Positions 31,085 through 62,930 of a DNA stretch of 64,000 nucleotides are shown here, in pieces. The notes beneath the pieces are model-generated. The model made no database searches, was not told the DNA's origin, and saw nothing but the letters and a program-made list of their open reading frames with translations. The stretch lies in the NCBI GenBank assembly GCA_963924555.1, contig OZ004586.1, forward strand, positions 3,492,501-3,556,500. The letters run 5' to 3'. Both the position numbers and the translations under genes were made by a program. The DNA is from Crambe crambe. Lineage: Eukaryota > Porifera > Demospongiae > Poecilosclerida > Crambeidae. Numbering within the stretch: position 1 is the stretch's first letter; every line of letters begins with the position of its first letter.

Positions 31085-32095
31085 AGAGATCAAGAGACAG
31101 GATATGTGTACATGTGCTCTTGGAGTTGTGGACTGTTTTCTGGTGTACCGTTCAGGAGCCATCATGGACACTCAGAATGCTAGCTAGCTGGGTGGGGCTC
31201 ATGAATAATGGAACTAAAACTGCACATGCGCATTAAGTTTGTTTACTTAAGGGATCGCCCTATTTTTCCAATTTTGTATCATAGCTCTGGAATTGCCATC
31301 AAACTGAGTTATATAAATTCTGCTTATTATTCTCAGCTAACATGATAAAAATTCAATAGAATTAGTTCTCATAAAATTAGCTTATGAAACAAACCACCAA
31401 CGTTTCGACCAGAATACTCTAGCCTTCATCAGGGTGATACAAAAAAATGCACACAGAAACGTCTTTATATAGCTATGCTCGTTATCTAGACAACACACAT
31501 GCAAACGCCTATGGATATTATATTATAGCATGCCAATACCTGAAGTCATAAACACTATTTCCCTAAGGCTTAAGCGTAGAAACCCAGCAACCTTGAAGTT
31601 CTAGACCTACATCCCTATTAAAACGCTGCTCTTCTGAAGTTAAACCAATATGAAGCGCTTCTTTTAGAAGCAGCTCCTTCCTAGTCCTAGATTGCTAGTC
31701 TACTAGCTAGTTTCCGGAACTTTGATCGGATCATATCAAGCATATGCGCATAGATACAGCTACTGTAGATCGCTACAGGGTGGGGCTCGTATAAAAGATC
31801 CAGAAGTGCTATTTGCCATTATATTAAGGTATACACTCTATTAATCACAACGAACAGCTACTTTTTAATAACTTTACCACAGATCTAGCTACTCACATCA
31901 TTTCGAGAATTTCATCGTGCAAGCATGAAAGAAGCAGAAAAAATATGCAACTATATATAGTCCCAACTTCCTAGTCATAATTAGACACTCATCCTTTCTT
32001 TTGGTTATCTCTCTTCGGTTCCCCAACACCAAACACCTGACCTTCTGTGTTCAAGCTGATCTGGGGGGATATGGTTTGCAGAGTCCCTGGAGTCA
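31085..32095 (+). pseudogene. Relic R: 5' end of a 2A-Death-ankyrin gene
   Basis: The promoter and first exons of the array genes are present in decayed form. Upstream blocks match 39580 and 49710 (AGATCAAGAGACAGGA...). The GGGTGGGGCTCGTATAAAAG promoter block ends at 31797. An exon-1-like ATGAAAGAAGCAGAAAAA starts at 31925 but has lost its GT donor. Part of exon 2 (about 31998-32062) ends before the 2A motif. An insertion with a Penelope/hammerhead-like core (31310-31690) splits the upstream region. Confidence 0.75.
31375..31445 (-). other. Possible hammerhead ribozyme core / Penelope-like element remnant
   Basis: On the minus strand the sequence reads CTGATGA (31432-31426), then a 19-nt segment whose ends can pair weakly (GGC/GTC), then GAAAC (31406-31402). 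That is the order of conserved hammerhead core boxes. Penelope-like retroelements are known to carry such motifs in their terminal repeats. Helices I and III were not established here. Confidence 0.4.
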
Positions 32096-33060
32096 ATATT
32101 GGAGCATCTAACTTCTATGAACTACTGTAACAGTTCTTAATGGGGAAAAAACACATGCACACACACATATCTAATCACATGCGTGCATGCACACACACAC
32201 ATAATCAGCTAGCTACTCCCTATGTAGGAAAAAAAGCGGACCACCATAGTGTATGCAACCAAACTTCACTTAATAAAATATGGTGAGTTCACTTTCCAGG
32301 AAGATGTCATCTACTAAGTAGCTGCATACAACTTTTATAAAATTAATGTGATGTGTAGCTATAGCTACACACATAATTCAGCCAGCCAGGTCCTACAAAA
32401 ATCTCACACATCGTAGCTATCTAGCTATAATGATAATAGTTAGCTATAGTTAAGTAGCCAGTTAGCTAAGTAAAAAATAAACTATTAGTGTTAACATTCA
32501 CTTTGTTTATTTTAAATGTTATCGTATACTTTCTCTGTTGGAGACAGTGAAGGACTTTGTTTTCTGGCCACATGTCCATATGCTACACAAACATCCATTT
32601 CCATTCCACCAGCAGGACCTCTGTGATGAGAAAGTACACATTTGATATAATGCTATTCAGAGTTACGTAAGTGGAGCCATGCACTCCCCAGCCATCCGGT
32701 CTCTGGGATTTGTGAGGAGGTATTTGGGCAGACAGCTCCACAGACAAGATGATGTCCCTGGTCAAGGGGACTGATAAAGTATTCAAGGCCTGGATAGGTC
32801 ATGCACTGCAGCAGGCATCCAACCGGGTGGCCATTAGCTATAACTTGAAAGAAAGGGCAGAGCTAAAACATTGGGTAACTACATACGTACTTCCTATAGC
32901 TATAGCTAATAGGCTATATAAACACTGCTACTGTATACATTATGACCTTACATTGAGCAATCTATAGCTAGCACTATCCTGAGCTGAAGGAGCTATACCT
33001 CTCTTGTTATATTAGCTAACAATAATTAGTGGGGATTGTATATTAACTACAGCTGAAGTC
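32096..33060. other. Intergenic, possible missing 3' exons of the FN3 gene
   Basis: It contains CA-rich microsatellites near 32155-32200. An unassigned stretch at 32583-32786, open on the minus strand, could be a cytoplasmic-tail exon of the FN3 receptor, but no splice pair was confirmed. Confidence 0.35.
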
Positions 33061-33064
33061 TCAC

Positions 33065-35166
33065 CCTTTCCTTATTCCTACATCATGACAGTAGATACAG
33101 TAAATGATAAAGATGATGGAAGTATAAAGTATGACAGTCAAGAGGAAGGTAACGACAATGGCAACAGAAAATTCTATTCTACTGACTCCAAATAGTGCAC
33201 TGCAAGCAGGTGGTGGTGATGTAGGAGCTGCAACTATAAAGAACACAATTAACTATGAAGCAGTTCCATGACATACATACATTCAGTTGACACAGTCCAA
33301 GTCATCACAAACAATGATCTCTGTCCAGTAAATGTTCGCTCATCAATTTCAGCAATAACCACCACATAAAACAAGTACTCCACATTACATGTCAGATTAT
33401 TAATAACAATTGAGTTACTGGAAGCATTAACAAAGACATCCATATTTCCAGATTGATTGTAGTAATAGTAAACTCTGTAGCTTATTGTGGGCTCTGAAGT
33501 GTCAATACTTTCCCATGAAACATTAACTGAAGTATTAGGCAACATCTCCACCATGACATTCATCACTACAGCTGCAAATGGCATCATGAATTATAATATG
33601 AGACATGCAGGGGCAATAACTCACGTAACTCAAGTGTAGTCTGATCAGGAAAATTAGCAGGTTTTCCTTGACCTATTTTTGTGTAAGCAGTGACTGTAAT
33701 ATTAGAAACTCTTGTTTGTGGAGTCAATGATGGGATAGTGAATGTAGTGGTCAAGTCTGAGGTGTTGACTCTGACAGTATTGTTGCCATTGACTGTGTAA
33801 GTGATTTCATAACAGATGATGACCCCATTAAGTTCTTGAGGAGGACTCCAAGTGAGTACAATGGAAGTGAACTTTGGAGTACCGGATAGGTTAGACACAG
33901 GACCAGGAGCTATACAATTTTTATTAGAAGTTATTACGTAGTTTATAACTACTTAGTATATAGTCAGCTAGCTAGTACTAACTTTCTTCTTTTGTCTGAA
34001 TGCTGATTACATCAGTAAAAGGTCCAGTGTCATTGTCATTGACTCCAGCAACTCTGAAGGTGTAGTTTGTGTAAGGAGTGAGTCCACTAGCTGTGAAGGT
34101 CCTATTCACCATCACACCAGGGATTACAGCTCCTCTCACTTCTTGGAATTCCACTCTGTAGGTAGTGATTGGACCATTGCGTTCAATGCAATCAATTTTT
34201 GACCAGGACACACTGACACTTCTGGAGGTGGTAAAGGAAGTATGTATGTTGCGTGGGGGAGCAGTAGGTGCTGCAGCAGAGAAAATTTCATATAATTATA
34301 GCTAATTTCATTGCATGGTCATACCAGCTGTCTTTGTAGTGAACTCTACAATTGGTATCAGAGTAGCAGTGAATCCACTTGGTAATGTAACAGTAATGGT
34401 TACATTGTAAATACTGAATACTTGTAGGTTAGTAAACTCCACTGTGGAAATACCAGTAGTCATCTTATATTTGCGATCCTGAACTTCATGACACAACTGT
34501 CGTGCACCACTTAGTTCTACTCCATAGACATCCATTGGGAGACTGAATGGAGGTTGGGTCCAGGATATGGTCACAGAAGTGGCAGTTAGTGATGAGAATG
34601 TGATATTTATTGGCCTGCTGAAATCTGATTTTGAATATTTTAGTTAGTTATTGATAGTATATGACATTTCCTCACCTCTTACAGTGCCACTCACAGGTCC
34701 TGCTACTATTGGAGTCCCATAAAGTGCAACCAGCCAATAAGTAACTGTACCAGGTACCTGTCCTACATCACGACTAGATCCTCCAGATGCTACTATTATG
34801 CCAGCACTGGAGCCTGTAGGTGTGTCATCTGTCGTTATTAGGTATCCCCTACTAGGAGAAAAGTGTGGTGGTGTCCAGGAGACTCTCACTCTATTTATCC
34901 CAATCTGTCTGACCATGAAGTTAGTAGGAGCTTTTCCTGCATATATCAAACCAGTTACTCATACCTACTACTCTTGTATGTTATACTATGGCTGCTACAG
35001 TCTAACACACACTCCATAATATATTGCTAAAAATATTGCTCAAGTTAAAGATATCATTTAACATCATTTAATCATAGCACTCACCTTGACTCTGCACTGA
35101 CAAGATGAGAGTTGATACTAGACATAGCATCATCATTAATACAACTAGCACACTGCTCTTCAACAT
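33065..35166 (-). CDS. Fibronectin type III receptor-like membrane protein, 3' end incomplete
   Basis: My exon model on the minus strand is 35166-35085, 34936-34676, 34624-34325, 34270-33983, 33909-33625, 33571-33281 and 33233-33065. Exon 1 encodes a signal peptide (MLKSSVLVVLMMMLCLVS...). Each of exons 2-6 encodes about one FN3 domain, with the expected Trp (VSWTPP, ISWTQPP, VSWSK, LTWSPPQ, VSWES) and a Tyr/Leu-rich end such as LTPYTNYTFRVAGVN. Exon 7 encodes a transmembrane helix (FSVAIVVTFLLTVILYTSII) and the start of a tail, ending at a GTGAGA donor. The first six introns in this model are phase 1. The protein is probably a cell-surface adhesion or signalling receptor; what follows the tail is not seen. 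The gene lies between the 5' and 3' remnants of relic R. Confidence 0.8.
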
Positions 35167-35553
35167 GGTCCTCTGGTAGTGAACTAATTAGCCCGTGTGA
35201 ATTGTGAATGAGTGTCATGGTTGTGTGAAGGAGATTCATTCGCAAAACGTGATCTCGAGACCACACCCGTACCCATTGGTTGAAAAAGTTATGATTGAAC
35301 TAGATAAAGGAATCGCTCTTAATAACTTTTCTGAGGACCTATATAGTACTACTACAAACTACATCTACTTGTTGATATATCTTAGAGTATCAGCTGCTTC
35401 ATACCTTAGTCTCGCAAGCCAGCCCACTTATTTTTTTTTTTCGCAGGGCGGCTGAAAAATAAGGGTCTGGTCAAACTTACATGGTCGAGTTGATCTGCAC
35501 AGTCAGCAGTATCATAGATATACAAGTAAAAGAAATAATAAAAAAAAGAAAGT
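35167..35553. other. Intergenic, dispersed-repeat-like sequence
   Basis: A segment near 35402-35490 (GTCTCGCAAGCCAGCCCAC ... GGGTCTGGT) resembles one at about 38000-38050 and is probably part of a dispersed repeat with inverted CTCGC/GGGTCTGG ends. No gene is seen. Confidence 0.45.
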
Positions 35554-35655
35554 TGATGTAGGGATGAAAAAAAAAAACAGTGTACAAAAAAAATAAAGAA
35601 ACAAGGGAAGAAATTGTGAAAAGAAAATGGTTGATTTATTATCATCCCTACATCA
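35554..35655. mobile_element. MITE, TGATGTAGGGATGA family
   Basis: The 14-bp inverted termini are TGATGTAGGGATGA and TCATCCCTACATCA. The interior is A-rich with no coding capacity. A second copy in the opposite orientation lies at 35954-36053, and the same termini occur inside the 24244 palindrome. Confidence 0.85.
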
Positions 35656-35953
35656 AGCCAAGGAATTATTGTAGCTAGATATTACACTTTGACTATTCAG
35701 CTAAGTAGCTATCATAAGATGTGCCACAATGAAACAATTAAATATATATAATGGTAGAATTAGCTATAGTATTATGTGATGCTACTATAGCTAGGTGGTA
35801 TTCATAGAATGTACTTGGTGCTCACATCATTGATTCAACCTCACTGAAAGGACAATCTCAACCACCTGCTAAAATGTGCTAAGAGTGACTGCTAATAGAT
35901 TTTCATTATTGAAAGAGGACAGCCTCTCTCTAGCTATAGTCCATTGCTACCAT

Positions 35954-36053
35954 TGATAGGGATGATAATAAATCAACCATTTTCTTTTCACAATTTCTTT
36001 CCTTATTTCTTTATTTTTTTGTACACTGTTTTTTGTCATCCCTAGCTACATCA
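35954..36053. mobile_element. MITE, TGATGTAGGGATGA family, reverse orientation
   Basis: The interior is the reverse complement of the 35554 copy (AAATCAACCATTTTCTTTTC, TTTTTTGTACACTGTTTTTT). The termini are slightly degraded, with a small GCTA insertion in the right end. Confidence 0.8.
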
Positions 36054-36080
36054 TTTTTTTAAATGTTTTTTTTTTCCTTT

Positions 36081-36493
36081 ATGGGCATAGTGACTATTTA
36101 ATGCAGTGTAATCCTAATGTATGGAAGACGACCACTTCACCATGCTTCACAATGCGGTCACCTCCACCTCGTCAAGAATCTCACAGAGAATCATGCCTGC
36201 GACCCCAATTCTCTGGATAATAGCAATTCTACACCTTTACATATTGCAGCCATCAAAGGACACCCCGATATCTAACTGAAGTCAAAGGATGCAACGGTAT
36301 ATTACAAGACAAGAATAATAACACTGCACTCCATGTGGCAGCAGTGTATGGTCAGCTCGCAACTGTGAAGTATTTCATCGAACATCTCCATTGCTCCCCA
36401 AGCATCAGAAATATGTTTAACAAGACTTCACTCCAGCTGGCCCAAGCAAAGGGTAACAGTGAAGTGGTGGGTTATTTCCACTCACACTGTTAG
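36081..36493 (+). pseudogene. Relic R: ankyrin 3' end of a 2A-Death-ankyrin gene
   Basis: The sequence follows the last ankyrin repeats of copies A-C (ACCCCAATTCTCTGGAT, AACTGAAGTCAAAGGATGCA) up to the same final stop context CACACTGTTAG. Small deletions break the frame (for example after CAAAGGACACC near 36260). It lies about 4 kb from the relic's 5' end, with the FN3 gene between. Confidence 0.85.
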
Positions 36494-36704
36494 TCTCCTT
36501 CATAACTATGCACTTAGCTACCACAATTTTATTGTATTGTGTTCATTTTGTAAAAATAATTTTGGTTCCCCTCACTCACATGGTCAGTTCTATTTGCTTC
36601 ACTTACACTTTTTGTTTCACTTCTCAAATTATAATTTTGTGGATTAATTTTTATTTGTAAAATTATTTTACCAAAAATGACATTCACATGATGCAGGACC
36701 TAAA

Positions 36705-38925: not shown

Positions 38926-38934
38926 GGAGGGAGG

Positions 38935-38975: not shown

Positions 38976-38980
<5 letters not shown>

Positions 38981-40002: not shown

Positions 40003-43000
40003 ATGAAAAAAGAATCAAAGGTATGCAACTATTTTAATACTGTAAGCAACTTCCTTTAGTGGTAACTAAACACTCCTGCTGTCTTTATCCAGTGCTTGTT
40101 GGTGATCTCTCTTCCCCCACATCAAACACTTTCTGTGTTCAATCTGTGGGATCATGGCTCCCTTCTCAACCTGTCATTTGCACAGACAGTTCTCCCCTCT
40201 CTCTTGATACTCTGTGGTGATGTCGAATCTAACCCAGGCCCAGAGAGTAAGTCCAACAATATCAAGTTCCTCATACACTGTTATTTTACATCTGTTTTTT
40301 GTTTTGTTGTTTTTCGTTTATTTGTTTGTTTGTAGCACAACTAACAGTGGATGATCTCTTTGAAGTCACCCAATATTTGAAAACTCTTCTTCCAGAAGAC
40401 TTGATACAGTTGGGTTTAGCACTGGGTCTCCACTACAGCGACTTGAAGATGATGAACCCTCTTCGTGAAGACATGGTTTCGGCTTGGCTCAATCAGAAAG
40501 ATAATGTGATGAAGAAGAGTGGTAAACCCACCTTGGCGAGCTTGATGAAAGCACTCGGAACTATTGGTCATGGAGGACTCGCTCAAAAGATTGCGCAAGG
40601 TAAAGATTAGTTAACTATCAAGTATATCATGATCAATTCTCATTGTCACTTCAACAGATCGACAGGAAACTCAATATCAAGAATCTGCTGCCTCTACTGT
40701 CAGTTCATGTGCCAGTTCAGGTATGTTACTTGAAGAGTTTCTATGTTAAGTGTTAATAGCTATATTATTTGAACATTTCAGTGCTAAGTCTTGTGGAACT
40801 TATTCCACATTTTCCTTCTCTCCCAACTCATGGAATGTCAGAAGATGAAAAAAAGATTAAAATGAATAAGCTTTACCAAGAAACTGAACAGATTAAAACT
40901 AGATTTGTTAATCTCATCTTTGGTCTTCAGAAGTCCATAGAAGAGTCATACAAATTCGATGACTTTCTAAGCCTCATTAAATTTCATGATATGAATTTTG
41001 AAGAAAAATTATTGGAAGGTTGTGATACAATGACTGAAGCTTTTCGTAGAGTGTCTAGATTTTGTTCTTTTCATGATCATCATATCATAAAGCTTTGGAT
41101 TAAGAAATTTGGTGGAAGAAGAAATAAAGAGGCACTTAAAAGCTTTAAACAAAAGATCCAGGAGTATTCTAAAAGACAAGTTTGTGAATGTCCAAGTAAT
41201 GCATTTGGTAATGCAGAGAAATCAGAAAAAGTTCTCTCTCTGGAAAGTAAAATAGAGCTTGACAAAATGACCATTGAAGAATTCGGAAAACTAGAGAAAA
41301 GGATGAAGATTGCATTGGGAGGTCCAGTGTTACGACTGCTGCATATTGATGAAGGTTGCAAGATGAAATACCGAACTTTGGATGATGGCATAATAGATGC
41401 TATTACTGAAGAACAACAGCTTGCTTTGCAAAGTCTGGGGTTGGTGAATATCAGTTATGGAGACCAGAGTCTCAATCTTTCTTCTCAGGTGACAACTAAT
41501 GATAAGGGAAAGGGTGAGTTCTCTCCATTGGTATTTGACGTCATCTGATATCTCTTCTCCTGCCCAGACCCTGTCCTCTCTCTAGTGGGGGAAATGGCTG
41601 CCCTTAAGGTGGAGGGTATTGATGGTGATGATGATACTGACTCAGCATTAGGCACAGTTAGTGACATCACTGGAACAGGTATTGCCACTACTCACTCAGA
41701 TCATAGGCGGTGAAACAGGTCAGGCCAGTCAGGCCCAGGCCTGACCAATATTTTGGGAAAAATTAGGGGTTAAAGGTTGTTAACGATTAATATTTACACT
41801 GTAATATTTATTCAGTGGCTATCAAAAGAGAAAGTGTCCTATGATGTTTGAATATAGCAAATTGTAGTGAATTTAGAGATTCAATGGTCTGGGGGATTAT
41901 ATTTCAATTTCAGGCCTGACCAATCAAATCTTGCTTCCAACACCTTTGCAGATGATGGTGGAAGCATATTCACAGGACCCAGGACCAATATCTCTGATGA
42001 GTTCCAGGTAAGAACTTCAACTTCAACGAACACAATGACGTAATTTCTTTAGCCTGTCTTATTGTCAGGAAGTAAATTTTTTTTTACATATCAGCATCAA
42101 CCTCTTATGCAATAGTTGTAATGTCTGTGTTCCAGGTAAGGATTTTAAAATCATTCCCCTAACATAAAAATATCTAGTTCTACCTAATTCAATAATTAGG
42201 GAAGAATAAATGATGTAGCATATTCTTATACATTTAGGCATAATAACTTTTAGGGCATAATTGAGCTTAATAGGCAATTACTCATAGACCTTTCTGAGGT
42301 TCAGTGAGCAAGGATGCTCATTGTCTTCCCTTTTCAAGAGAGTCCTCTTAGTCCAACCTTCATCTACACAGCTTATGAAAGGGTTTTGTCACATCCTTTA
42401 GCTAATGAGAGAAGAATATCTTCAACGCTGATAAATCTATTGCTACATATAGAACAATGTTTAAGAAGCATAATAGGTAGAATTGGAGATCAAGAAAACA
42501 ATGGAGCATAGCAATTTTACTCACACCTAATGTTTACTAAGGGTGCTTGCAACCCTCCGCCCACGCATGGTTGCTAGAGGAGTATAACTCCAGAGCTGTC
42601 TAGAGCAGCAATAAGAAAAATATCCCAGCTATACAGTACCATGTCACTACCACACACACCAAAAATTTCAAATATTGCCTAATTATCGTGGGTGCTATGA
42701 ATGACTTTGCTAATGCCTGTAATTCTCAGGAACTGTTGGACTTACTTAGATAATTTTTTCTCTCAGACACCTTCTATCTGTATTCTACAACATAATATTG
42801 AGTTTTTCTGAATTTCAATATTAATTTTAAACTTATGAAAGCTGCATGCAAAAAATGAGCTGATTCGAACCAGTGGTTCCTGAGATATATGAAGTAATCC
42901 AAATTTTATGGTTTAAGGTATTTTAGCCACACCATGCTCCACCCCCTCTTTATAATTAATACATAGTGTGTAGATTGATCCTATCTGAAGATAAGACTAT

Positions 43001-44248
43001 AAAATTATCCAACTAGCTGCAGTATAAGTGCAGGACAACCTTTTCGAACTCTAGAAATAGAAGCACGGGCATTGCTATTGCAAGCACCCTTATAACAATT
43101 CCTCTATTATGTTAGTATTAGAGTGAGAATTTCCTTCCCTCACATGACAGGACTATGTTGGGAGAGACTTGAAGGACCCACGACTGGACATGATAATCTC
43201 AGCAGAAACCACCACCAAGCAGAGCTTGGAATTGCATCATGCTGCCGCAATAGGAGACCTGGATGAAGTGAAGCATCTCATCACAAAGGGACTCAACCCC
43301 TTAGCAAAAGATGCGAACAATAATACATCACTACATCGAGCAGCTATCAACGGAAGATTGGAAGTGCTTGAGTACCTGATCGAAAGTGAGCTATGCAACC
43401 CTGCGCCATTAGGTAAATATGGAATGACACCATTACACCAAGCAGCTATAACAGGTCATCTCAACATAGTACAGTATCTAATTGACAAGCACCAAGTTGA
43501 TCCCCTTGAGCAGGACGAGGATGGTTATTCACCTCTACACAGAGCTTGTATTGGCAGAAATTTAAAAGTAGTGAAGTACTTGATGGAGACAATGCTGACC
43601 TTCATGAAGATAGAAGATATTTTCAAGGATTTCACAAAGCATCAGACTTCTCCCATCCACGTTGCAGCTCAATTTGGTCACATTGAAACATTGAAATATT
43701 TTATCCATGACTGCAATTGTGACCCCAACCTTCCTAATGGTGTGCATGGTGGAGGACCTCTTTTTGATGCCGCACAGGAGGGTCACTTGTCCATTGTAAA
43801 GTTCCTGATAATGGAGTGTGGGTGTGACCCTGAGAGTAAAAATGATGAGCATGCCACCCCCCTAGGTCTTGCTGCACAGTTTGGGCACTTATCAATAGTG
43901 AAATATCTATGTGAAGACATGAGGTGTGATCCTCTCTGTAGGAACAAGCGGAACAGCACACCACTTCACAATGCAGCCCTTTATGGACATAGTGATGTTT
44001 GTGACTATTTAATAAACATTATGCAGTGCAATCCTAATGTTCCTGGTCAGTATGGAAGACGACCACTTCACACTGCTTCACAAGAAGGTCACCTTCACCT
44101 CATCAAGAATCTCATAGAGAATCATGCCTGCGACCCCAATTCTCTGGATGACTGGAATTCTACACCTTTACATATTGCAACCGTGGATGGACACCTATCC
44201 ATCATCCGATATCTAACTGAAGTCAAAGGATGCAACGCTATGTTATAA
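40003..44248 (+). CDS. Copy A: 2A-leader / Death domain / ankyrin-repeat protein, truncated by nonsense codon
   Basis: My exon model is 40003-40020, 40093-40246, 40336-40599, 40658-40720, 40782-41513, 41568-41678, 41952-42007 and 43151-44248. Exons 1-2 encode a leader of about 57 residues ending in the 2A-like motif CGDVESNPGP. Exon 3 encodes a Death domain (LLPEDLIQLGLALGLHYSDL ... WLNQKDNV). Exon 5 is the conserved 245-residue region, and exon 8 encodes ankyrin repeats. TTATAAGAC replaces TTACAAGAC of B and C, so a stop at 44246-44248 removes the last two repeats (sequence continues to the ancestral stop at about 44468). Exon 1 is 10 nt and exon 2 five nt shorter than in B. Together the losses restore frame before the 2A motif. 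The TATA-like box is altered. It may be a weakly expressed or truncated allele, or a young pseudogene. Confidence 0.75.
40201..40242 (+). other. 2A-like recoding motif, copy A
   Basis: The sequence encodes LLILCGDVESNPGP. The consensus D-V/I-E-x-N-P-G-P is met exactly. In characterised 2A sequences the ribosome fails to form the Gly-Pro bond and continues, giving two products. Confidence 0.9.
41702..41951. mobile_element. About 250-bp insertion used as (part of) an intron in copy A
   Basis: Copies B and C read continuously from GACATCACTGGAACAGGTAT through GATGATGGTGG. Copy A has about 250 extra bases at this point, starting CATAGGCGGTGAAACAGG and ending TTTGCAGAT, with CAGAT repeated at both junctions. 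The right end supplies a CAG acceptor and an existing ACAG|GTATTG gives a donor. Confidence 0.7.
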
Positions 44249-45074: not shown

Positions 45075-48000
45075 TCAGCAGAGTGTTTGGAGATGGTTAC
45101 CACTACTCTTAGACTTCTTGGACATGTTCTCAACGAAACTCCGAACAATCGCAGTCATGGAATTTATCTTAGGCTTGGCTACGGTTGGCGTTACAGAACC
45201 ACCTGGAGTAAAGGGAAGAGTCAATAGTAGCAATTCTAATAATATTATTAATATCACCAATCAAGTTCACTCACTGTCGTCCTTTCTTTCTGGGCTCTGC
45301 ACACGTCGAATGTGCACAGGAATGGTCAAACTGGTTGAACTTATTGGCTCAGTCAATGATTGTAGCCCAGTATTCTCAAACTGCGACACAAGTGAAGAGA
45401 CTTGGAGGTTGCTATGGTGGTTGCTAGGGGGTGTGAGCTCCTGCCAGCTGTTGGAGACTATTTGTGGTGTGTGTGAGAGCAAATTCCCTGAAACAAAGAG
45501 ATCAGTCTTGTGGGTAGTTCCAGGGGAGCCCCTTTCATTAGTTGGTGGGGGTGGATGACTGGATACTGTTGTACTCATCACAGTTACATTCTTATAATCA
45601 GTTCTACTGGAATGGATTTTTGGAATGAGACTGTCTGATTCTGTTATGTCTGGAGTGGAACACGAGGTCAATTCGTCACTTTCTGCTTGGGAGGGAGAAG
45701 CTACTGAAGACTCGATATTAGACTCCGTGGTCTCATTAGGCTCTGTCCCACTGAACCGGTCGAACCGGTTTTCATAGCTGTCACTGGTGGACTCTCCATC
45801 AGCATCATGTCCATCTCCATCTGACCCGTGGGTGACTTCTTGTCTTCGGTGGAGGAAGATTTACTTCCCACGTTGCCACTACTGTCCTCTCCAGTAGAAT
45901 GATTGGCCACCGAGTCTTGACTGCTGCTGAGATTGGTACCACACTGAGGTCTGACTGGACTATTATTCAGATTGGTACTGGAACGAGACTGAGGTCTGAG
46001 GGGCATGGTATCTGCAAAGACTCCCTTGGAGCTAGTGGTTGATCCACTTGACCCTTGTCTCTTATGAGTCCTCAAGGAACAATTGGATCCATTTCTACGG
46101 TGACCACGTGGGTGACGAACACTTTCAATCAGATCAGTCACTTCAGGAGAGAAACTCCAATCTGGTGCGAGGGGTGTGGTCGGATGTCTTGGACGGGGGG
46201 TAGAATCTCGACTAAAGGTGTCCAACACAGCTGGTTCATCGAGGAGAGAGTGAGTGGATGGGTCGTGCTCGGAGAGGTGGTGAGGGGCATGTGTGGTTGT
46301 CATCAGACTACTGAGTGGGGGAGGGACTCTCTCCGAGCGAGGAGGTCAAAGTTCTGAACCCTGTCCAGAAATCCTGACAACTCTTTAGCTTTGTCTTCCT
46401 TGGACTGGCTTGATTTTCTCTTCCGACGCCACACTCTCTTGCGTCCTCCTGGTGAGTCATATGATTTAACTGTGGGCACATGGGGTTGGAACGTCCCATC
46501 CTCTTCATTATCTCTGCTGTCAGTTGTCCTGCAATCAAGTGGGGGTGTGGCTGTGTGATAGGGGAAACCCCCACCTACAGAATGATGCTTCATCTTATAT
46601 GCCTTGTCATTCAGCTGTCTCTCCCGTCTGGAAACAGCAAACAAGTAATGAAGATCATTTCTGGTTCATTTTCCACCCACCATCCCTAGAAAACTTTCAA
46701 TGGTGATGTAACCTAAACCCTTCTTGAAAATGGGGTCCATTGAGGTCATAGCATGAATGCACTTATATGGGTGAACACGTGTGCTTATCCTGTTCCAGAG
46801 GTTTGAAAGGGAATATAGTTAACTCTCTCACCTTGTCGTTCCAACTCCTTCGCATCCAATTGACTCTTGCAGGACTTGAGTTCCTTGTATAGCTTGTCTG
46901 CTGTCTGCAGCTTCTGTTCGTACATGACTTGGATGTCTTAAGCATGTTTCAGTTCCTCCTCCCTCTGCTGGATCAGTTCAGAGTCATTAGGGGATCCCCT
47001 CGATACGAAGCTTGCTAAGACACTCCTCTATCTCACCTCTCCAACTCTCCTGCAAATAAACAATATCACTGTACATCCAACATGATTATTGTGTTACTTG
47101 CCTGGGACATGAGGTAAGTGTCTGGAGGGATGGTTAGAAATGCTCCAGCTACGAGATCAAGATGCATCAGAATCTGCCGGAAAGATGGTCTGTTTATAGG
47201 CTTGGGTTGCCTAGGAAACGAATCGAGAATGCAATCAAACAGATGTCTTTTGTTACTAATTAAGAATAAGATATATATCACTTATGGTAAACACATTATC
47301 TATCAAGACTTTGCCGACACTGCAAAATACCTGAGGGCTGCTGCTGGTATCAAAAGCCTTGGAGTAGCTAACCCTGTGCCCCCAAAGAATGCCAACCACA
47401 TAAACTGATAAGAGCTAATTACTGTCCATTGAATGCTGAACTGCATAAGGTCTTGCTACAGTGGAATGCAGTGATCTTGCAACAGAACACCAAACCAAAA
47501 TTTACATAGCTTCCTTTGAAATAGCCCAACTCTAAAGCCACAATTAAGTCAGTTGAAAGGAGGCTATGTAAATTTTGGTTTAGTGTTTTGAATTTCATGT
47601 TGCAATCCACTATAACAACTCCTCCATGTTGTGAACTACCCATATATTTACCCTCCACTGACTTTGACCCAGCCTCCACTGATTCCTTACCAACACATTT
47701 CCAAGAGGACTTTGAGACCCACTGGACAGCCCGAGGGGATGGGAGGTGGAGACTGTTACTGCCAACACCCCAAATCACTGCAGAGGAACTGCAAGTATGA
47801 CCACTAGAGTCAAAGGTTGCTATAGTGATACACCTAATACACCTAATGCTGTGTTCAATAAAATGTCAGTGTTGAAAATCACTGAAGTCACTGAGGGAAG
47901 ACTCCAAATTCCTAACTCCCTTACATGCTAGAGTTACTCCAACCTTCTTTTGTGGTGATTCTTGACACATTATATTTCATTTACATTGTATGGCTTCTCC

Positions 48001-50262: not shown

Positions 50263-53200
50263 ATGAAAGAAGCTGAAAAAACCATCAAAGGTATGCAACT
50301 ATTTTGTATTCCTCCTGCCTACATATTCCAACTACCTTTAGTGATAGCTAAACACTCATCCTTTCTTTATCCAGTGTTTGTTGGTGATCTCTCTTCCCCC
50401 ACATCAAACACCTTCTGTGTTCAAGCTGATCTGAGGGATCATGGCTCCCTTCTCAACCTGTCCTTTGCACAGACAGTTCTCCCCTCTCTCTTGATACTCT
50501 GTGGTGATGTCGAATCTAACCCAGGCCCAGAGAGTAAGTCTAACAAATCATTTTGAGAATAGTGTGACTGTAGCCCATCCATTTTTTTTTCTTTTCTTCC
50601 TTTTTTTTTTTTTTTTTTTTTTTTTTTTGTAGCACAACTAAAAGTTGATGACCATTTCAAAGTCACTCAATATTTGAAAGATCTACTTTTAAAAGACTTG
50701 AAATCGTTGGGTGGGGCTCTGGGACTCCGCTACACCACCTTGGATAGGATGACATCTGATTCACTATGTGAAGGATTGGTTTTGGCTTGGCTCAATCAGC
50801 AAGATAATGTGATGAAGGAGAGTGGTAAACCCACCTGGGAGAGCTTGATGAGAGCACTCAGAACTATTGGTCATGGAGGACTGGCTCAACAGATAGCACA
50901 AGGTAAAGATTTTATGTATATCGTGATCAATTCTCATTGTCACTTCAACAGATCAACTGAAAACTCAATATCATGAATCTGCTGCCTCTGCTGTCAGTTC
51001 CAGTTCAGGTATGTTATTTAAAGTGTTTCTATGCTAAGTGTTAATAACTATAATTTTTCAGTGCTAAGTCTTGTGGACCTTATTCCACATTTTCCTTCTC
51101 TCCCAACTCATGGAATGTCAGAAGATGAAAAAAAGATTAAAATGAATAAGCTTTACCAAGAAAATGAACAGATTAAAACTAGATTCGTTAATCTCATCTT
51201 TGGTCTTCAGAAGTCTGTACAAGAATCGTACACATTCGATGACTTTCTAAGCCTTCTTAATCTCCATGATATGAAATTTGAAGAAAACTTATTAAAAGGC
51301 TGTGATACGGTAACTGAAGCTTTTCGCAGAGTGTCTAGATTTTGCTCTTTTCATGATCATCATATCGTAAAGCTTTGGATTAAGAAATTTGGTGGAAGGA
51401 AAAATAAAGAGGCACTTAAAAGCTTTAAACAAAAGATCCAGGAATATTCTGAAAGACGAGTTTGTGAATGTCCAAGTAATGCATTTGGTAATGCAGAGAA
51501 ATCAGAAGAAGTTCTCTCTCTGAAAAGTAAAATAGAGCTCGATAAAATGACTGTTAAAGAATTTGCAAAAATTGAGAAAAGGGTGAAGATTGCATTGGCA
51601 GGTCCAGTGTTACGACTGCTGCGTATTGATGAAGGTTGCAAGATGAAATACCGAACTTTGGATGATGGCATAATAGATGCTATTACTGAAGAACAGCAGC
51701 TTGCTCTGCAAAGTCTGGGGTTCATGAATATCAGTTATGGAGACCAGAGTCTCAATCTTTCTTCTCAGGTCACAACTGATGATAAGGGAAAAGGTGAGTT
51801 CTCTTCATTGGTATTAGACGTCATCTGACATCTCTTCTCCTACTCAGACCCTCACTCTCTAGTGGGGGAAATGGCTGCCCTTAAGGTGCAGGATATTGAT
51901 GATGCTAACTCAACATTTGGCACAGTTAGTGACATCACTGGAACAGGTATTGCCGATGATTGTGGAAGTATATTCACATCAGGACTCGGGACCTATATCT
52001 CTGATGAGTTCCAGGTAAGGATATTAAAATCTTCATTCCCCTAACATAAAAGCATCAACCTGCTACTGAGTAATAGCTCATAATTAGAGATGATAGCTTT
52101 ACTCATCTAATTTTAATATCCATGGTTACAGCTTACTTGTATTTGATTAATTTAATTTCCATGTATTTTTTAATTGCTGTTACTTGTAAACAATGGTTGT
52201 AATGTCTGTGTTCCAGGTAAGGATTTTAAAATCATCATTCCCTAACGTAAAGTGCTACTAGTTCTACATAATTCAATAATTAGGGAAGAATAAAATTAAT
52301 GATGTAGCATATTCTTTTACATTTACTTTTAGGGCATAATTGAGCTTAATACCATATAGCGGGTATATTTCGAGGGGCGAAAGTTTCACGATTAGATTTT
52401 TTTGTCTATTTCGCAGGGAAATCATTCGCGGTTTAGATTTTTAAAAAACAAACTTGGCCGGCTAGCAAGCCAGCTGGCCATGTGCGCATGTGCACGAATA
52501 CCTAACTAGCTAGCTAAGGGCCATTATTTACTAATTTTGCGCAACATAACAACACGCATGTGACAATCAATTATCGGGCAGCACCTGCCCGTTTCCTATC
52601 CCTGTACAGCCGTTACGTAGTATAGCCAAATTTCTTCCACGTGATTCACGTGGTTAAATATTTGTGGACAGAAGAGAAATCGCGAAATAAATCCGCAAAA
52701 CTTTCACCCCTCGAAATATACCCACTATACGGTAGGCAATTACTCATAGACCTTTCTGAGGTTCATTGAGCCAGGATGAATTACCCTCATTGTCTTCCCT
52801 TTTCAAAAGAGTCCTCTTAGTCCAACCCTCATCTACACAGCTTATGAAAGGGTTTTGTCATTTAATGAGAGACGAATATCTTTAATGCTGATAAATTTAT
52901 TGCTACATATAAAATAATTTCTAAGAAGCATACTTGTTTTAATTTCCATGTATTTTTTAAGTGGTTACTTGTAAACAATGATTGTAATGTCTGTGGCACA
53001 ATCCATAAATTTCCAGACTTCTATAGCTAATAAGTCAACAATTCCTCTATTATGTTAGTATTAGAGTGAGAATTTCCTTCCCTCACATGACAGGACCATG
53101 TTGGGAGAGACTTGAAGGACCCACGACTGGACATGATAGTCTCAGCAGAAACCACCACCAAGCAGAGCTTGGAATTGCATCATGCTGCAGAAAGAGGAGA

Positions 53201-54374
53201 CCTGGAAGAAGTGAAGCATCTCATCACAAAGGGACTCAACCCCTTAACAAAAAATGTGAAAAATAATACATCGCTACATCGAGCAGCTAGTAATGGAAGA
53301 TTGGAAGTGCTTGAGTACCTGATCGAAAGTGAGCTATGCAACCCTGCAGTATTAGGTGAATATGGAACAACACCATTACACCAAGCTGCTCGATTTGGTC
53401 ATCTCAACATAGTACAGTATCTAGTTGACAAGCACCAAGTTGATCCCCTTGAGCAGGATGAGGAAGGTTACTCACCTCTACACAGAGCTTGTCAGAGTGG
53501 AAATTTAAAAGTAGTGAAGTACTTGATAAAGATAATGCTGACCTTCATGAAGATGGAAGAAATTTTCAAGGATTTCACAAAGTATCAGACTTCTCCCGTC
53601 CATGTTGTAGCTCTGAATGGTCACATCAAAACATTGAAATATTTTATCCACGACTGCAATTGTGACCCCAACCTTCCTAATGGTGTGCATGGTGGAGGAC
53701 CTCTTTTTGATGCTGCACAGTGGGGTCATTTGTCCATTGTCAAGTTCCTGATAATGGAGTGTGGGTGTGACCCTGAGAGTAGAAATGATAATCATGCCAC
53801 CCCCCTACATCTTGCTGCACAGTGGGGGCACTTAGCTATAGTGAAATATCTATGTGAAGATATGAGGTGTGATCCTCTCTGTAGGAACAAGTGGAACAGC
53901 ACACCACTTCACAATGCAGCCCTTCATGGACATAGTGATGTTTGTGACTATTTAATAAACATGCAGTGCAATCCTAATGTTCCTGGTTGGTGTGGAAGAC
54001 GACCACTTCACGATGCTTCACAAGAAGGTCACCTCCACCTCGTCAAGAGTCTCGTAGAGAATCATACTTGCGACCCCAATTCTATGGATAACTGGAATTC
54101 TACACCTTTACATATTGCAGCCGCAAAAGGACACCTATCCACAATCCGATATCTAACTGAAGTCAAAGGATGCAACGCTATGTTACAAGACAAGAAGTAT
54201 GGCACTGCACTCCACTGGGCAGCAGAGTTTGGTCAGCTCGCAACTGTCAAGTATTTCATCGAACATCTCCATTGCTCCCCAAACATCAGGAACGTGTATG
54301 ACGAGACTCCACTCCAGCTGGCCCAAGCAGAGGGTCACAGTGAAGTGGTGGATTATTTCCACTCACACTGTTAG
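50263..54374 (+). CDS. Copy B: intact 2A-leader / Death domain / ankyrin-repeat protein (about 897 aa)
   Basis: My exon model is 50263-50290, 50375-50533, 50633-50902, 50952-51008, 51062-51793, 51848-52014 and 53094-54374. Phases agree, giving 897 codons. Leader residues 1-61 (MKEAEKTIKVFVGDLSS... LLNLSFAQTVLPSLLILC) end in 2A-like GDVESNPGP. Next are a Death domain (about 66-150), a Ser-rich linker, the conserved helical region (about 172-415, with VCECPSNAFGN and GPVLRLLRIDEGC), an acidic linker (ISDEFQ) and 12 ankyrin repeats in one exon. If 2A acts, the second product starts at the proline just before the Death domain. The Death domain suggests an adaptor in apoptotic or innate immune signalling, with ankyrin repeats as the recognition part; that role is inference. 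This is the only undamaged copy of the array, and its promoter has a good TATA box. Confidence 0.88.
50488..50529 (+). other. 2A-like recoding motif, copy B
   Basis: It encodes LLILCGDVESNPGP at the end of the leader exon. The splice donor follows four nucleotides after the Pro codon, so the motif sits at the exact 3' border of its exon. Confidence 0.9.
52352..52732. mobile_element. TA-flanked MITE in the pre-ankyrin intron of copy B (381 bp)
   Basis: The termini CCATATAGCGGGTATATTTC and the complement of CCGTATAGTGGGTATATTTC form TIRs of about 35 bp. TA flanks both ends (52350-52351 and 52733-52734). Copy A near 42265 and copy C near 60460 have the uninterrupted TAATAGGCAATTA, so both are empty sites. 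There is no coding capacity. Confidence 0.9.
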
Positions 54375-57625: not shown

Positions 57626-57894
57626 ACCAACAAACACAGCACTAACAAGAAAACAATGCAAAATTACACTCACTAGTCACTTGATAACTGCTAGAACAAT
57701 ACAGTTAATGTTATGTCCTCCACTCACTAAAGGACTCCATGGACATCAAATTGCTAATGACCTTGAGTTTTAATGAAACAGTCCACACAACTTCACTGAT
57801 CTTTGACTACTTTGCACTCATCAATAACATGACCTTTACACACAACACCAACTGAATGATAACCTCCCAGAAGTGACATTTGCTTTCACGGAAT

Positions 57895-58135
57895 AAAATC
57901 TACGTGGTGCGCACTGTAGAGCACCATGCGCACCAAGTAGATGGGTGGGGCTCATGAGTTGCAATTAAAACTGCACATGCGCGTTAAACGCCTTTTTGTC
58001 AAGCTACTACATCACTAAAGGGGTGGGGCTCGTATTAAAGACAACTTTTTAGGTGAACTCTATTGATCACAATAAAACATCATAAAAACTACCACAGATC
58101 TAGTCACATCATTTCCAGGACTTCATTGTGCAAGC
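57895..58135 (+). promoter_or_regulatory. Promoter region of copy C, variant TATA
   Basis: The GGGGTGGGGCTCG block is present but the TATA-like element reads TATTAAAG (58033-58040). The distance to the leader ATG is about 103 bp. Confidence 0.55.
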
Positions 58136-61100
58136 ATGAAAGAAGCTGAAGAAATCATCAAAGGTATGCAACTTGGCATATATTTTCCAACTACCTTTAG
58201 TGATAACTAGACATTCCTGCTTTCTTTATCCAGTGCTTGTTGGTGATCTCTCTTCCCCCACATCAAGCACCTTCTGTGTTCAATCTGATCTGGGAAATCA
58301 TGGCTCCCTACTCAACCTGTCCTTTGTGCAGACAGTTCTTCCCTCTCTCTTGATACTCTGTGGTGATGTCGAATCTAACCCAGGCCCAGAGAGTAAGTCT
58401 AACGATCTTACTGCTTACTGTAACCCATCCTTAAAAAATAATCTTCACCTTTTTTTCGTTCCTTTGTTTTTATCTTTTTGGTAGCACAACTAACAGTGGA
58501 TGACCATTTTGAAGTCACTAAATATTTGAAAACTCTTCTTCCAGAAGACTTGATAGACTTGGGTGGGGCATTGGGTCTCCAGTATAGCAACTTGAAGATG
58601 ATGAACCCTCTTCGTGGAGATATGGTTTTAGCTTGGCTCAATCAGCAAGATGATGTGATGAAGAAGAGTGGTAAACCCACCTGGGAGAGCTTGATGAAAG
58701 CACTCAGAACTATTGGTCATGAAGGACTTGCTCATAAGATTGCACAAGGTAGTTGCAGCTAATTCTGGACTAGTAACTACTCAGTATCCAAATCAACTAG
58801 TTGTGAATTTGATTAAAATAAAGGTCCATTCTAAAGATCAACTGAAATACATGATCTTATAATGCCAGTCGATATAACCAGTTAGTTAATGATTTTCATG
58901 ACTTATTTTGTTACAGGTGTTCAACAGTTGACATCAGACACTCCAACATCATTTGACATGAGTTCTGAAGGTAAATCAGAAATAATTCTTGACAAGAGAA
59001 CAATTATATCTTCATTTTAGATCAACTGAATGTCAGATCTCCAGAACCTGCTCCTTCCACAGTCAGCTCATCCTCTAGTTCAGGTACTGTTCTGAGGGAA
59101 GTTAAGATCTATTTATGCAAGCGTGTTACTTGAAATTTCAGATATGAGTGCTGTGGATCTCATTCCATGTTTTCCATTCTTACCTACCGATGGGATGTCA
59201 GAAAAAGAGAAAAGATTTAAAATGAGACAGTTGCAGAAGGAAACTGAACGTTTGAAGGCTAAATTTACTAACCTTGTCTTTGACCTTCAAAAGTCTGTCG
59301 AAGAAAAGTGCACACTAGATGACCTTCACAGCTTCCTAACCTACCATGAAGCAAAGTTTGAAGAATTACTAGAAGGTTGCAAAACCATACCAGAAGCATT
59401 TCGCAAAGCATCAAAGTTTTGGTCTTTCTATGATCGTGATCTGATCAAACTTTTAATGAACAGATTTGGTACAACAAGAAATAAAGAAGCACTCAAAGAT
59501 TTCCGGAAGAGATTTCAAGATTATTCCAAGAGACGAATTTGTGAATGTCCGAGCAATACATTTGGTAACGAAGAAGAGTCAGAAAAAATGCTCGCTCTCA
59601 AAAGTGAAATGAAAATCGATAAAATAACTGTTGAAGAGTTTGAGAAACTGGAGCATGCTATGAGAAGAGCATTGGGAGGTCCAGTGTTACGACTGCTGCA
59701 TATTGATGAAGGTTGCGTTGAGATGAAGTACCGAGCTTTGAATGACAGCATAATAGATGCTATTACTGAAGAACAACAGCTTGCTTTGCAAAGTCTGGGG
59801 TTCATGAATATCAGTTATGGAGACCAGAGTCTCAATCTTTCTTCTCAGGTCACAACTGATGATAAGGGAAAAGGTGAGTTCTCTCCATTGGTATTTGACA
59901 TCATCTGATGTCTCTTCTCCTACCCAGACCCTGTCCTCTCTCTAGTGGGGGAAATGGCTGCCCTTAAGGTGAAGGGTATTGATGGTGATGATGATGCTGA
60001 CTCAGCATTTGGCACAGTTAGTGACATCACTGGAACAGGTATTGCCACTCACTCAGATGATGGTGGAAGTATATTCACATCAGGACTCGGTACCAATATC
60101 TCTGATGAGTTCCAGGTAAGGATATATAAAAGCATCAACCTGCTACTAAAATTTCAGAGTAATAGCTCATAATTAGAGATGATAGCATTACTCATTTGCA
60201 TTAGGTTTTTATAAATTTTAATATCCATGGTTACAACTTATTTATATTTAATTTCCATGTATTTTTAATAGCTGTTACTTGTAAACAATGGTTGTAATGT
60301 CTGTGTTCCAGGTAAGGATTTTAAAATCATCATTCCCCTAACGTAAAAATATCAACGTGCTACTAGTTCTACCTAATTCAGAAATTTTCGATAATTAGGG
60401 AAGAATAAATGATGTAGCATATTCTTTTACATTTAGACATAATAACTCTTTAGGGCATAATAGGCAATTACTCATAGACCTTTTCTGAGGTTCAGTGAGC
60501 CCTTTTCAAGAGAGTCCTCTTAGTCCAACCCTCATTTACACAGCTTATGAAAGGGTTTTGTCACTTCATTTAATGAGAAAAGAATATCTTCAACACTGAT
60601 ATATTTATTGCTATTATTATATTATGGAACAATTTTTAAGAAACATAATAGGAGATTAAGAAAACAATGGAGCATAGTAATTTTAATGTTTACTAGTTTT
60701 AATATCCATGGTTACAGCTTACTTATATTTGATTAAATTAATTTCCATGTATTTTTTAATTGCTGTTACTTGTACACAATGACTGTAATGTCTGTGGCAC
60801 AATCCATAAATTTCCAGACTACTATAGCTAATAAGTCAACAATTCCTCTATTATGTTAGTACTAGAGTGAGAATTTCCTTCCCTCACATGACAGGACTAT
60901 GTTGGGAGAGACTTGAAGGACCCACGACTGGACATGATAGTCTCAGCAGAAACCACCACCAAGCAGAGCTTGGAATTGCATCATGCTGCAGAAAGAGGAG
61001 ACCTGGAAGAAGTGAAGCGTCTCATCACAAAGGGACTCAACCCCTTAACAAAAAATGCGAACAATAATACATCACTACATCGAGCAGCTAGTAATGGAAG

Positions 61101-62180
61101 ATTGGAAGTGCTTGAGTACCTGATCGAAAGTGAGCTATGCAACCCTGCGGTGTTAGGTCAGTGTGGAGTAACACCATTACACTGTGCAGCTGAAGCAGGT
61201 CATCTCAACATAGTACAGTATCTAGTCGAAAAGCACCAAGTTGATCCCCTTGAGCAGGATGAGGAAGGTCTCTCACCTCTACACAGAGCTTGTCAGGGCG
61301 GAAATATAAAAGTAGTGAAGTATTTGATGGAGATAATGCTAACCTTCATGAAGATGGAAGATATTTTGAAGGATTTCACAAAGTATCAGACTTCTCCCAT
61401 CCACATTGCAGCTCTGAATGGTCACATAGAAATATTGAAATATTTTATCCACGACTGCAATTGTGACCCCAACCTTCCAGATGGTGGTGTGCATGGTGGA
61501 GGACCTCTTTTTGATGCTGCACAATGGGGTCACTTGTCCATTGTCAAGTTCCTGATAATGGAGTGTGGGTGTGACCCTGAGAGTAGAAATGATCAGCATG
61601 CCACCCCCCTACTTCTTTCTGCACAGAGTGGGCAGTTATCAATAGTGAAATATCTATGTGAAGACATGAGGTGTGATCCTCTCTGTAGAAACAAGTGGAA
61701 TGACACACCACTTCACAGCGCGCCCTTGATGGACATAGTGATGTTTGTGACTATTTAATAAACGTTATGCAGTGCAATCCTAACGTTCCTGGTCAGTATG
61801 GAAGACGACCACTTCACCATGCTTCACAAGAAGGTCACCTCCACCTTGTCAAGAATCTCATAGAGAATCATGCCTGCGACCCTAATTCTCTGGATGACAG
61901 CAATTCTACACCTTTACATATTGCAGCCTCAAAAGGACACCTATCCATCATCCGATATCTAACTGAAGTCAAAGGATGCAACGCTATGTTACAAGACAAG
62001 AATAATAACACTGCACTCCACTGGGCAGCAATGTTTGGTCAGCTCACAGCTATCAAGTATTTCATCAAACATCTCCATTGCTCCCCAAACATCAGAAACA
62101 TTTTTAATGTGACTCCACTCCAGCTGGCCCAAGCAGAGGGTCACAGTGAAGTGGTGGATTATCTCCACTCACACTGTTAG
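58136..62180 (+). pseudogene. Copy C: 2A-leader / Death domain / ankyrin gene with frameshift
   Basis: My exon model is 58136-58163, 58234-58392, 58485-58748, 58917-58970 (an exon absent from A and B), 59021-59083, 59142-59873, 59928-60115 and 60895 to 62180. The leader, 2A motif, Death domain (LPEDLIDLGGALGLQYSNLK) and conserved region are open. A one-base loss in the ankyrin exon near 61720 (CACAGCGCGCCC against CACAATGCAGCCC in B) shifts the frame to a stop at about 61756-61758. The remaining repeats continue in the other frame to 62180. The first part of the conserved region differs strongly from A and B, while the part after about 59670 is nearly identical to them. It may still yield a protein with a shortened ankyrin domain. 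Confidence 0.8.
58347..58388 (+). other. 2A-like recoding motif, copy C
   Basis: It encodes LLILCGDVESNPGP, identical at the protein level to copies A and B although the preceding leader residues vary. Confidence 0.9.
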
Positions 62181-62388
62181 TCTCCTTCATAACTATGTAC
62201 CACTATTTATTGTGTTGTGTTCATTTTGTAATAATTTTTGTTCCCCTCACTCACATGGTCAGTTCTATTTGCTTCACTTACACTTTTTGTTTCACTTCTC
62301 ACATTATGAATTTTGTTTGTTATAATTATTTCATATTCACATGATGTCCCGCGGCACTTCCAGGCAAAATAACATGATTGTGTGCCAC

Positions 62389-62605
62389 CGACCAGTGATT
62401 CAGATGGTAATGAATATGACACATCAAGCATTCTGTTCACCACACCAAAGAAAATTCTCCACATCAAATGATCCACCCATCAATGTTTCAGAGGGGTAAT
62501 TAAGATACATCAAAAGAATATACCACATCAAAGGAAGTTATAACCACATCAAAGGAAGTTGTGACCACATCAAAGGAAGGTACGACCACATCAAAGGAAT
62601 TTAGG
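62389..62605. repeat. Minisatellite, inverted relative to the other units (unit C)
   Basis: Units read AACCACATCAAAGGAAGTT, the reverse complement of the arrays after R, A and B. The flanking pieces (CACATCAAGCATTCTGTTCA, TTTCAGAGGGGTAATTAAGA) are inverted too, while sequence on both sides keeps the usual orientation. Confidence 0.85.
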
Positions 62606-62829
62606 TATCGATGTGCATTAATCTCTAGAGCTATAGCTGAATCACTGATGGGTGGAGCTTCATACATTTAATCATAATACATTATATAAACAATGAATTT
62701 CACACAATCATGTTATTTTTAACAGAACAGTGGAAAGGGTTCATATATCATTCAGGACACCAGCTTGAGGACTCTGCATCAAAGACAATGCATAATCATT
62801 AAGATACACTCAGATTGCTAATCCTGTGA

Positions 62830-62930
62830 GTCTTCTACCTGGAAGCCACTGTCTTCCAGCTCAGCAGAGTGTTGGCAAAGAAACTCTGAACAATGGCAGT
62901 CATGGGATTTATCTTAGGTTAGCAGGGCCA
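62830..62930 (-). pseudogene. Remnant of kinase 3' end (unit C), array border
   Basis: It is similar to 45040-45190 (CTTCTACCTGGAAGCCACTG, GGCAGTCATGG-ATTTATCTTAGG) with internal deletions. Nothing of the kinase domain follows, so the tandem array ends here. Confidence 0.7.

Follow-up and report, generated by a model that had tools for sequence, protein, structure and literature searches.

What does a gene make when its first coding exons end in a signal for ribosome skipping? The question is raised by a 64,000-nucleotide stretch of the genome of the sponge Crambe crambe (C9:3492501-3556500, in a genome of 143,139,886 bases; hereafter the window), where three gene copies, A, B and C, carry a 2A-like motif ahead of a Death-like domain and ankyrin repeats. 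The core of 2A (StopGo), a ribosome-skipping motif, is DxExNPGP. We consider it probable that this Death/ankyrin family is made via 2A skipping and that the freed, leaderless protein is the product that is kept. In copy B, a ribosome would translate a 60-residue leader ending in the 2A, the Gly-Pro bond of GDVESNPG/P would fail in most passes and the leader would be released. Translation would then continue to give a separate Death-244-ankyrin protein of 837 residues starting with proline, and this would be the product maintained by selection. That skipping takes place in sponge cells is inferred from the motif and its context; its frequency and the role of the freed protein as the signalling form are inferences too.

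The 2A-bearing genes of the window

NPGP occurs three times in the six-frame translation of the window, always on the + strand and within LLILCGDVESNPGP (codons at window positions 40231, 50518 and 58377), and the 36 bases around it are identical among the three copies, a string that never occurred when the window was shuffled 100 times. The original prediction had seen the 2A consensus in the right frame in every copy, along with consistent splice phases, and both observations hold. GDVESNPGP is in frame in A, B and C, followed by the Death-like domain, a 244-residue region and the ankyrin repeats. Copy B, the only intact one of the three, consists of seven exons (28+159+270+57+732+167+1281 nt) with consensus splice sites and compatible phases, which form a single open frame of 897 codons plus stop; its GDVESNPGP is at residues 53-61, within the N-terminal region. 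In copy A the ankyrin exon runs into a TAA after 366 codons and exon 6 is interrupted by about 260 nt; in copy C the frame of the ankyrin exon shifts after 288 codons. The ATG exon of copy A is 18 nt long (28 in most copies) and its 2A exon 154 nt (159 in most); these two frame changes cancel, so that the leader is read in a different frame while the 2A and the Death domain are still in frame.

The predicted order of leader, 2A, Death domain, conserved region and ankyrin repeats stands for the three copies but not for the relic that had been added to them, in which blastn of the exons of B (E 0.001) found no 2A core, Death domain or 244-residue region. The conserved region itself was found, at 244 residues and not the 245 first given. 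The tandem array is real as a local cluster, one among several of its kind in this genome. The features, in window positions, are:

31925..32067, + strand, relic, ATG-exon piece (31925-31943) and first 63 nt of the 2A exon (32001-32067); blastn, 94.7% and 79.1% identity to B
36090..36493, + strand, relic, ankyrin exon (3' third), 84% identical to positions 851-1281 of B exon 7; repeat family D1
40003..40020, + strand, copy A ATG exon (18 nt); 27-copy alignment and splice check
40093..40246, + strand, copy A 2A exon (154 nt; 5 bases short, which offsets the 10 absent from the ATG exon)
40216..40242, + strand, copy A GDVESNPGP codons; putative skip point 40239/40240
40336..40599, + strand, copy A Death-domain exon
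40782..41511, + strand, copy A exon of the 244-residue region (aligned part); 93% identity to B exon 5
43151..44248, + strand, copy A ankyrin exon, shortened by TAA
50263..50290, + strand, copy B ATG exon (28 nt, ending in phase 1)
50375..50533, + strand, copy B 2A exon (159 nt, beginning and ending in phase 1)
50503..50529, + strand, copy B GDVESNPGP codons; putative skip point 50526/50527
50633..50902, + strand, copy B Death-domain exon (270 nt)
50952..51008, + strand, copy B linker exon (57 nt)
51062..51793, + strand, copy B exon of the 244-residue region
51848..52014, + strand, copy B linker exon (167 nt)
53094..54374, + strand, copy B ankyrin exon including the stop codon; Pfam Ank_2 1.4e-78
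58136..58163, + strand, copy C ATG exon
58234..58392, + strand, copy C 2A exon
58362..58388, + strand, copy C GDVESNPGP codons
58485..58748, + strand, copy C Death-domain exon
59144..59875, + strand, copy C exon of the 244-residue region (part used for alignment)
60895..62180, + strand, copy C ankyrin exon, frameshifted past codon 288

The ankyrin repeats of B are clear from Pfam (value listed above). Pfam alone was rejected as the means of identifying the Death domain, which scores 15.7 bits in B by itself, below the cut-off of 22.6 bits. A profile built from 13 relatives and compared with the PDB retrieved mainly Death-domain entries, with THOC1 as the best match (E 0.0008) and NRADD, FADD and RIPK1 also present. 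The AlphaFold model of the domain is weak (predicted local distance difference test, pLDDT, 65); the top Foldseek hits of this model were the Death domains of p75NTR and FADD at E 0.5, with none below 0.001. By profile and weak model, the domain of B bears a modest resemblance to solved Death domains. The 244-residue region matched no Pfam family and had no convincing sequence match in the PDB (best E 0.66), and its structure model (pLDDT 45.7) was unusable. A protein-database search with B gave six matches, each covering 52-55% of the query and aligning to this region. NACHT was absent from both exons of B scanned with Pfam, and an NLR identity for the focal genes was rejected on that ground.

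The 2A motif across the genome

The first observation is confirmed and enlarged at the scale of the genome, where DxExNPGP occurs at 210 sites (92 forward, 118 reverse) and the reversed pattern at one. By sub-pattern, 97 sites have T before the N, 79 have L or V, 27 more form a third set, of which 25 are of the SNPGP type on C9, and seven make up the last; C14:6590077 (DEEENPGP) and C18:6412595 (DEEINPGP) look like chance matches. The sites are mostly clustered, on several chromosomes. The ankyrin exon of B matches 116 stretches genome-wide, sometimes two per gene, and at C10:4.10-4.51 Mb 16 ankyrin exons are interspersed with 14 2A sites. For the analyses of neighbourhoods and splice donors, 80 distinct 2A loci were used, 27 of which belong to the focal family.

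These 27 (L039-L065) are the close copies on C9 retrieved with the 54-residue 2A exon as query, which gave weaker matches in the rest of the genome. Because they were selected for similarity to the 2A exon, copies in which that exon is broken may be too few in this set; the ATG exon lay outside the query. In all 27, ATG and 2A share one reading frame. Their ATG exons measure 18, 19 or 28 nt, the following introns 66-105 nt and the 2A exons 150-162 nt, and the summed exon length leaves one common remainder modulo 3 in 27/27. The introns between the two exons come in 13 lengths, with modulo-3 remainders shared by 10, 10 and 7 copies. An alternative ATG in the intron before the 2A exon of B, in frame in that copy, was set aside because intron lengths cover all phases and because the changes in copy A cancel only via the ATG exon. 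Beyond the 2A, the best donor is in phase 1 at 75 of the 80 loci (at two of these, L009 and L011, it is very weak), in phase 2 at three and in phase 0 at two; among donors scoring at least 6, the corresponding counts are 28, 3 and 1. The 2A exon of the focal genes meets the Death exon in phase 1.

Within the 2A exon, the leader and the motif have different substitution patterns. Nonsynonymous (pN) and synonymous (pS) differences were compared pairwise among the 24 copies with a 159-nt exon, three of the 27 being omitted for length. Codons 1-28 gave a pS of 0.054 and a pN of 0.054 (pN/pS 1.01), and codons 29-52 a pS of 0.049 and a pN of 0.011 (pN/pS 0.22). Counted as distinct codon variants, codons 1-32 contain 23 nonsynonymous and nine synonymous changes, a neutral-like ratio (binomial P 0.50), and codons 33-52 contain two and five (binomial P 0.019). 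Permuting columns between these parts gave P 0.00085 and Fisher's test P 0.075, with cut points that were chosen after the columns had been seen. The context upstream of the 2A is conserved and borderline hydrophobic, with LSFAQTVLPSLLILCG nearly invariant among the 24 copies. In five further leader groups, which comprise 31 of the 80 loci, the last 20 codons show a lower pN/pS than the leader (0.04 against 0.26 in a group of 10 loci, 0.35 against 0.58 in 4, 0 against 0.50 in 6, 0.24 against 0.52 in 8, and 0 against 0.58 in 3). The leaders of these groups, in contrast to that of the focal family, have ratios well below 1. The 2A appears to be kept by selection where tested and, as a part of the reading that we find probable, the focal leader would be largely a carrier for it.

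Dissimilar leaders precede the 2A-Death adjacency at many places in the genome. One type, named for its ESEGTTKTRF sequence, was noted at L019, L024-L026, L030, L034, L038, L070, L074 and L077 (C1, C5, C8, C10 and C21) and in P0007 and P0026. It is about 110 residues long, hydrophobic at its start, and contains several cysteines as well as an N-x-S/T site ahead of GDVETNPGPG; it is constrained (pN/pS 0.26). A protein search with a leader group other than the focal one gave 20 matches, including P0026, which comes from a 1,856-base contig of another source and carries a similar leader plus GDVETNPGPG. A leader of this type may itself be a secreted product.

At 52 of the 80 loci the 2A has a Death exon at most 1.5 kb downstream, as judged with a profile from 12 seeds that all come from these loci (12 of the 52 positives are the seeds' own), and at none was such an exon found upstream or antisense. 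Two lists of Death exons, from Pfam Death and from the Death exon of B, with 150 matches listed in each, place one within 1.5 kb downstream of at least 50 of 205 2A sites and, among the matches listed, none upstream on the same strand and none on the other strand; the five sites beyond the 205 had no Death exon among these matches. Ten open reading frames downstream of a 2A were tested with Pfam, and one was an Ig domain; an eleventh frame, Death-like in appearance, gave nothing. Ig-like exons after the 2A were noted at L009 and L095 (C1:3.55 Mb) and at L073 (C10:4.70 Mb), by Pfam for L009 and L073 and by eye for L095; at L073 the Ig-like exon comes after a Death-like exon.

NACHT exons occur within 12 kb downstream of five of the 205 sites, and none upstream or opposite. 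The complete site list adds a sixth, C12:673984, with NACHT 0.7 kb downstream and the NACHT of a neighbour gene 5.0 kb upstream. The sites with NACHT on the same strand, 0.7-10.5 kb downstream, are C12:668135, C12:673984, C16:2088616, C9:8373101, C21:1489881 and C8:6449150.

The window contains other genes apart from the array. A TRAF-like gene with RING and TRAF-type zinc fingers is located at 4904-5860 (+), and a single-exon open reading frame of 1406 aa with Chlam_PMP-type repeats, whose C-terminal half looks multi-spanning by eye, at 10577-14797 (+). Two overlapping serine-rich open reading frames lie between copies A and B at 45267-46345 (-).

Paralogs with a putative start codon in place of the 2A

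No DxExNPGP site of the 210 lies on C10 below 1.3 Mb, a block that holds 36 ankyrin exons. A search for ATG followed by AAT or GAT, CCT or CCA, GG and the same donor (up to three mismatches) found 30 sites in the genome, and none with the pattern reversed. An ankyrin exon lies within 9 kb downstream of 21 of these M-(N/D)PG sites (three in the upstream control), and 17 of the 36 ankyrin exons in the C10 block have such a site within 9 kb.

Among 13 sites that were examined, DIK in place of DIE stands ahead of the ATG in ten, and in-frame stops occur in the 30 codons upstream of it in seven. Pieces of the old leader can still be made out, NLSFAQ in one and NLYMSFAQ in two; four sites read NPGQ and one NPGK. 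DIEMNPGP is present at three sites elsewhere, with a Death exon 121-342 nt downstream, so that the change from DIE to DIK would need one step. The seven ATG-type genes group in a single clade (100/98) in a tree of 24 ankyrin exons, where 2A genes occur both next to this clade and outside it; this tree is midpoint-rooted, with several open branches and four rows of unassigned state, and its genes from C10:4.1-4.5 Mb, which mostly lie over 9 kb from their 2A sites, were scored as 2A because the two are interspersed. For these reasons, the direction from 2A to ATG rests more on the leader relics with stops than on the tree. In one branch of paralogs, the 2A seems to have decayed and a start codon to have taken over at almost the same codon. 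The freed protein seems to be what is kept, since it is the expected outcome of skipping and since the ATG clade would produce an almost identical protein without that step.

Alternative readings and related systems

Several observations weigh against a family kept for its freed product. The 2A loci are copies, and their counts are not independent events. Few changes underlie the contrast within the focal exon (Fisher P 0.075). At 28 of the 80 loci, the nine on C1 among them, the search within 1.5 kb revealed no Death exon; the one C1 locus examined with Pfam has an Ig-like exon instead, and Pfam Death was above its cut-off in four of the ten downstream frames tested. Conversely, 104 of the 150 B-type Death exons, among the matches listed, lack a known 2A within 1.5 kb upstream, and the 2A is thus not a general need of the Death domain. 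Two of the 28 close Death exons on C9 have lost the 2A: the ATG exon is kept and most of the 2A exon deleted at C9:440.4 kb, and the 5' end is a different sequence at C9:342.4 kb. In the C10 block, 19 of the 36 ankyrin exons have neither form within 9 kb, and six of the 13 examined M-(N/D)PG sites have no stop in the 30 codons upstream of the ATG. Finally, the 2A exon begins and ends in phase 1, and its omission in splicing would yield an in-frame, leaderless Death protein. The Death exons without 2A and the ankyrin exons that lack both forms narrow how far the claim extends, but they leave the interpretation of the 2A-bearing copies as it was. As a separate impression, the replaced 5' end at C9:342.3-343.5 kb (L080, positions 1-700) resembles the end of an open reading frame of a mobile element.

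The phases of the exons bear on an explanation by alternative splicing, in which a cassette 2A exon, and not ribosomal skipping, would set the balance between leader-bearing and leaderless Death protein. The ATG exon and the 2A exon both end in phase 1, joining ATG to Death exon is in frame, and one copy has kept its ATG exon after losing most of the 2A exon; however, cassette use alone would not keep GDVESNPGP near fixed amid drift in the rest of the exon, and we think this explanation unlikely. Still less likely, in our judgement highly so, is that the motif is kept for another peptide role, or that gene conversion mimics conservation, with no skipping at all. The focal copies are indeed young and similar (pS about 0.05), but pN differs within one exon between two parts whose pS is nearly the same, and the same core ends dissimilar leaders in groups where pS reaches about 0.5. 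A passenger origin is suggested by the 2A known in non-LTR retrotransposons (in passages of PMC11512398 and PMC4981915). This origin we reject as extremely improbable: a splice donor, and often a Death exon, comes after the 2A in the loci read, and there is no excess of reverse transcriptase near 2A sites among the matches listed. That list held the best 150 of 801 candidates, 144 of them used, and placed one match within 6 kb downstream of a 2A site, one upstream and two on the other strand; of the stop-free frames read downstream of 2A sites, none was recognised by eye as reverse transcriptase.

The strongest competitor is dual targeting, in which an unskipped leader would act as a signal or anchor for the secretory pathway, the skipped product would be cytosolic and translocon engagement may shift the balance. 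The same arrangement and mechanism were tested with a sea urchin NLR leader (in passages of PMC4981915), and signal-bearing upstream proteins can, once in the translocon, inhibit 2A (as sections of PMC2978324 report). Several other leaders are strongly hydrophobic near the 2A, with 17-residue Kyte-Doolittle means of 2.68 in the C1 cluster, 2.5 at C10:4.70 Mb, 2.33 at C16:2.07 Mb and 3.11 at C1:4.42 Mb, the last located 20 residues ahead of the 2A, and two families have Ig-like exons downstream. The focal leader, however, is unconstrained outside the 2A, an observation that argues against any strong role in targeting. With a best 17-residue mean of 1.71 in most copies, the hydrophobic stretch of this leader is borderline, and it adjoins the 2A, not the N-terminus; the ESEGTTKTRF-type leaders reach about 1.0, and a hydrophobic run may serve skipping itself. 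Dual targeting is possible for this family, yet we hold it doubtful. The prediction that the share of skipped and fused product directs the protein to different places thus finds no backing in the focal leader, with its neutral-like pN/pS of 1.0. Its companion, that one mRNA would yield both a leader and a Death/ankyrin protein, gains indirect support from the frame kept in 27/27 copies, the constraint centred on the 2A, the dissimilar leaders and the ATG paralogs.

The preferred reading, a 2A kept for the freed Death/ankyrin protein, has its closest relative in the sea urchin Strongylocentrotus purpuratus, whose NLRs carry N-terminal 2A signal sequences for which dual targeting was tested (passages of Roulston 2016, PMC4981915). 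As far as those passages go, both cases concern a large family of immune-type, Death-domain proteins that carry the 2A in their N-terminal region. The focal genes differ in belonging to a sponge, in their 244-residue region and ankyrin repeats, with no NACHT found in B, and in having a separate 2A leader exon behind an ATG exon, dissimilar leader groups and paralogs with ATG for 2A. With viral 2A/StopGo, as described in parts of PMC12846837, they share the DxExNPGP core behind a hydrophobic run; here, by contrast, the 2A stands at the end of an exon in an intron-bearing host family, with no polyprotein. The same parts of that 2026 paper describe cellular StopGo use as rare and name the sea urchin case. 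The 2A core is likewise shared with non-LTR retrotransposons (sections of PMC11512398), but the sites in this genome are without an excess of reverse transcriptase among the matches listed. The NLR repertoire of Dysidea avara, to judge from portions of PMC12909245, offers a parallel in demosponge expansions of families with Death domain and NACHT, and some 2A sites described here have NACHT downstream; the main text of that paper has no mention of '2a-like', 'npgp' or 'ribosom'. Among the open-licence papers listed, none was found to report a 2A in Death genes of sponges; Rao et al. 2025 (Cell Rep 44:115822) may list sponge 2As.

A broader proposal, which we regard as rather unlikely, is that in demosponges the 2A would be a genome-wide device placed before Death modules with ankyrin, Ig or NACHT, a regulated switch that sets the cytosolic receptor, and that branches free of the switch would hard-wire it by a change from GDIEMNPGP to GDIK-MNPG. 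If this were true, formation of the bond would be set by, for example, translocon engagement or translation stress, and would decide the amount of receptor freed. As it stands, a single animal genome has 210 motif sites, many of them clustered and often with a Death domain attached, and with selection on those tested, which adds a second animal phylum that pairs 2A with Death domains. The clade of ATG paralogs shows a possible substitute for the 2A, and the family offers a workable system for cellular 2A function.

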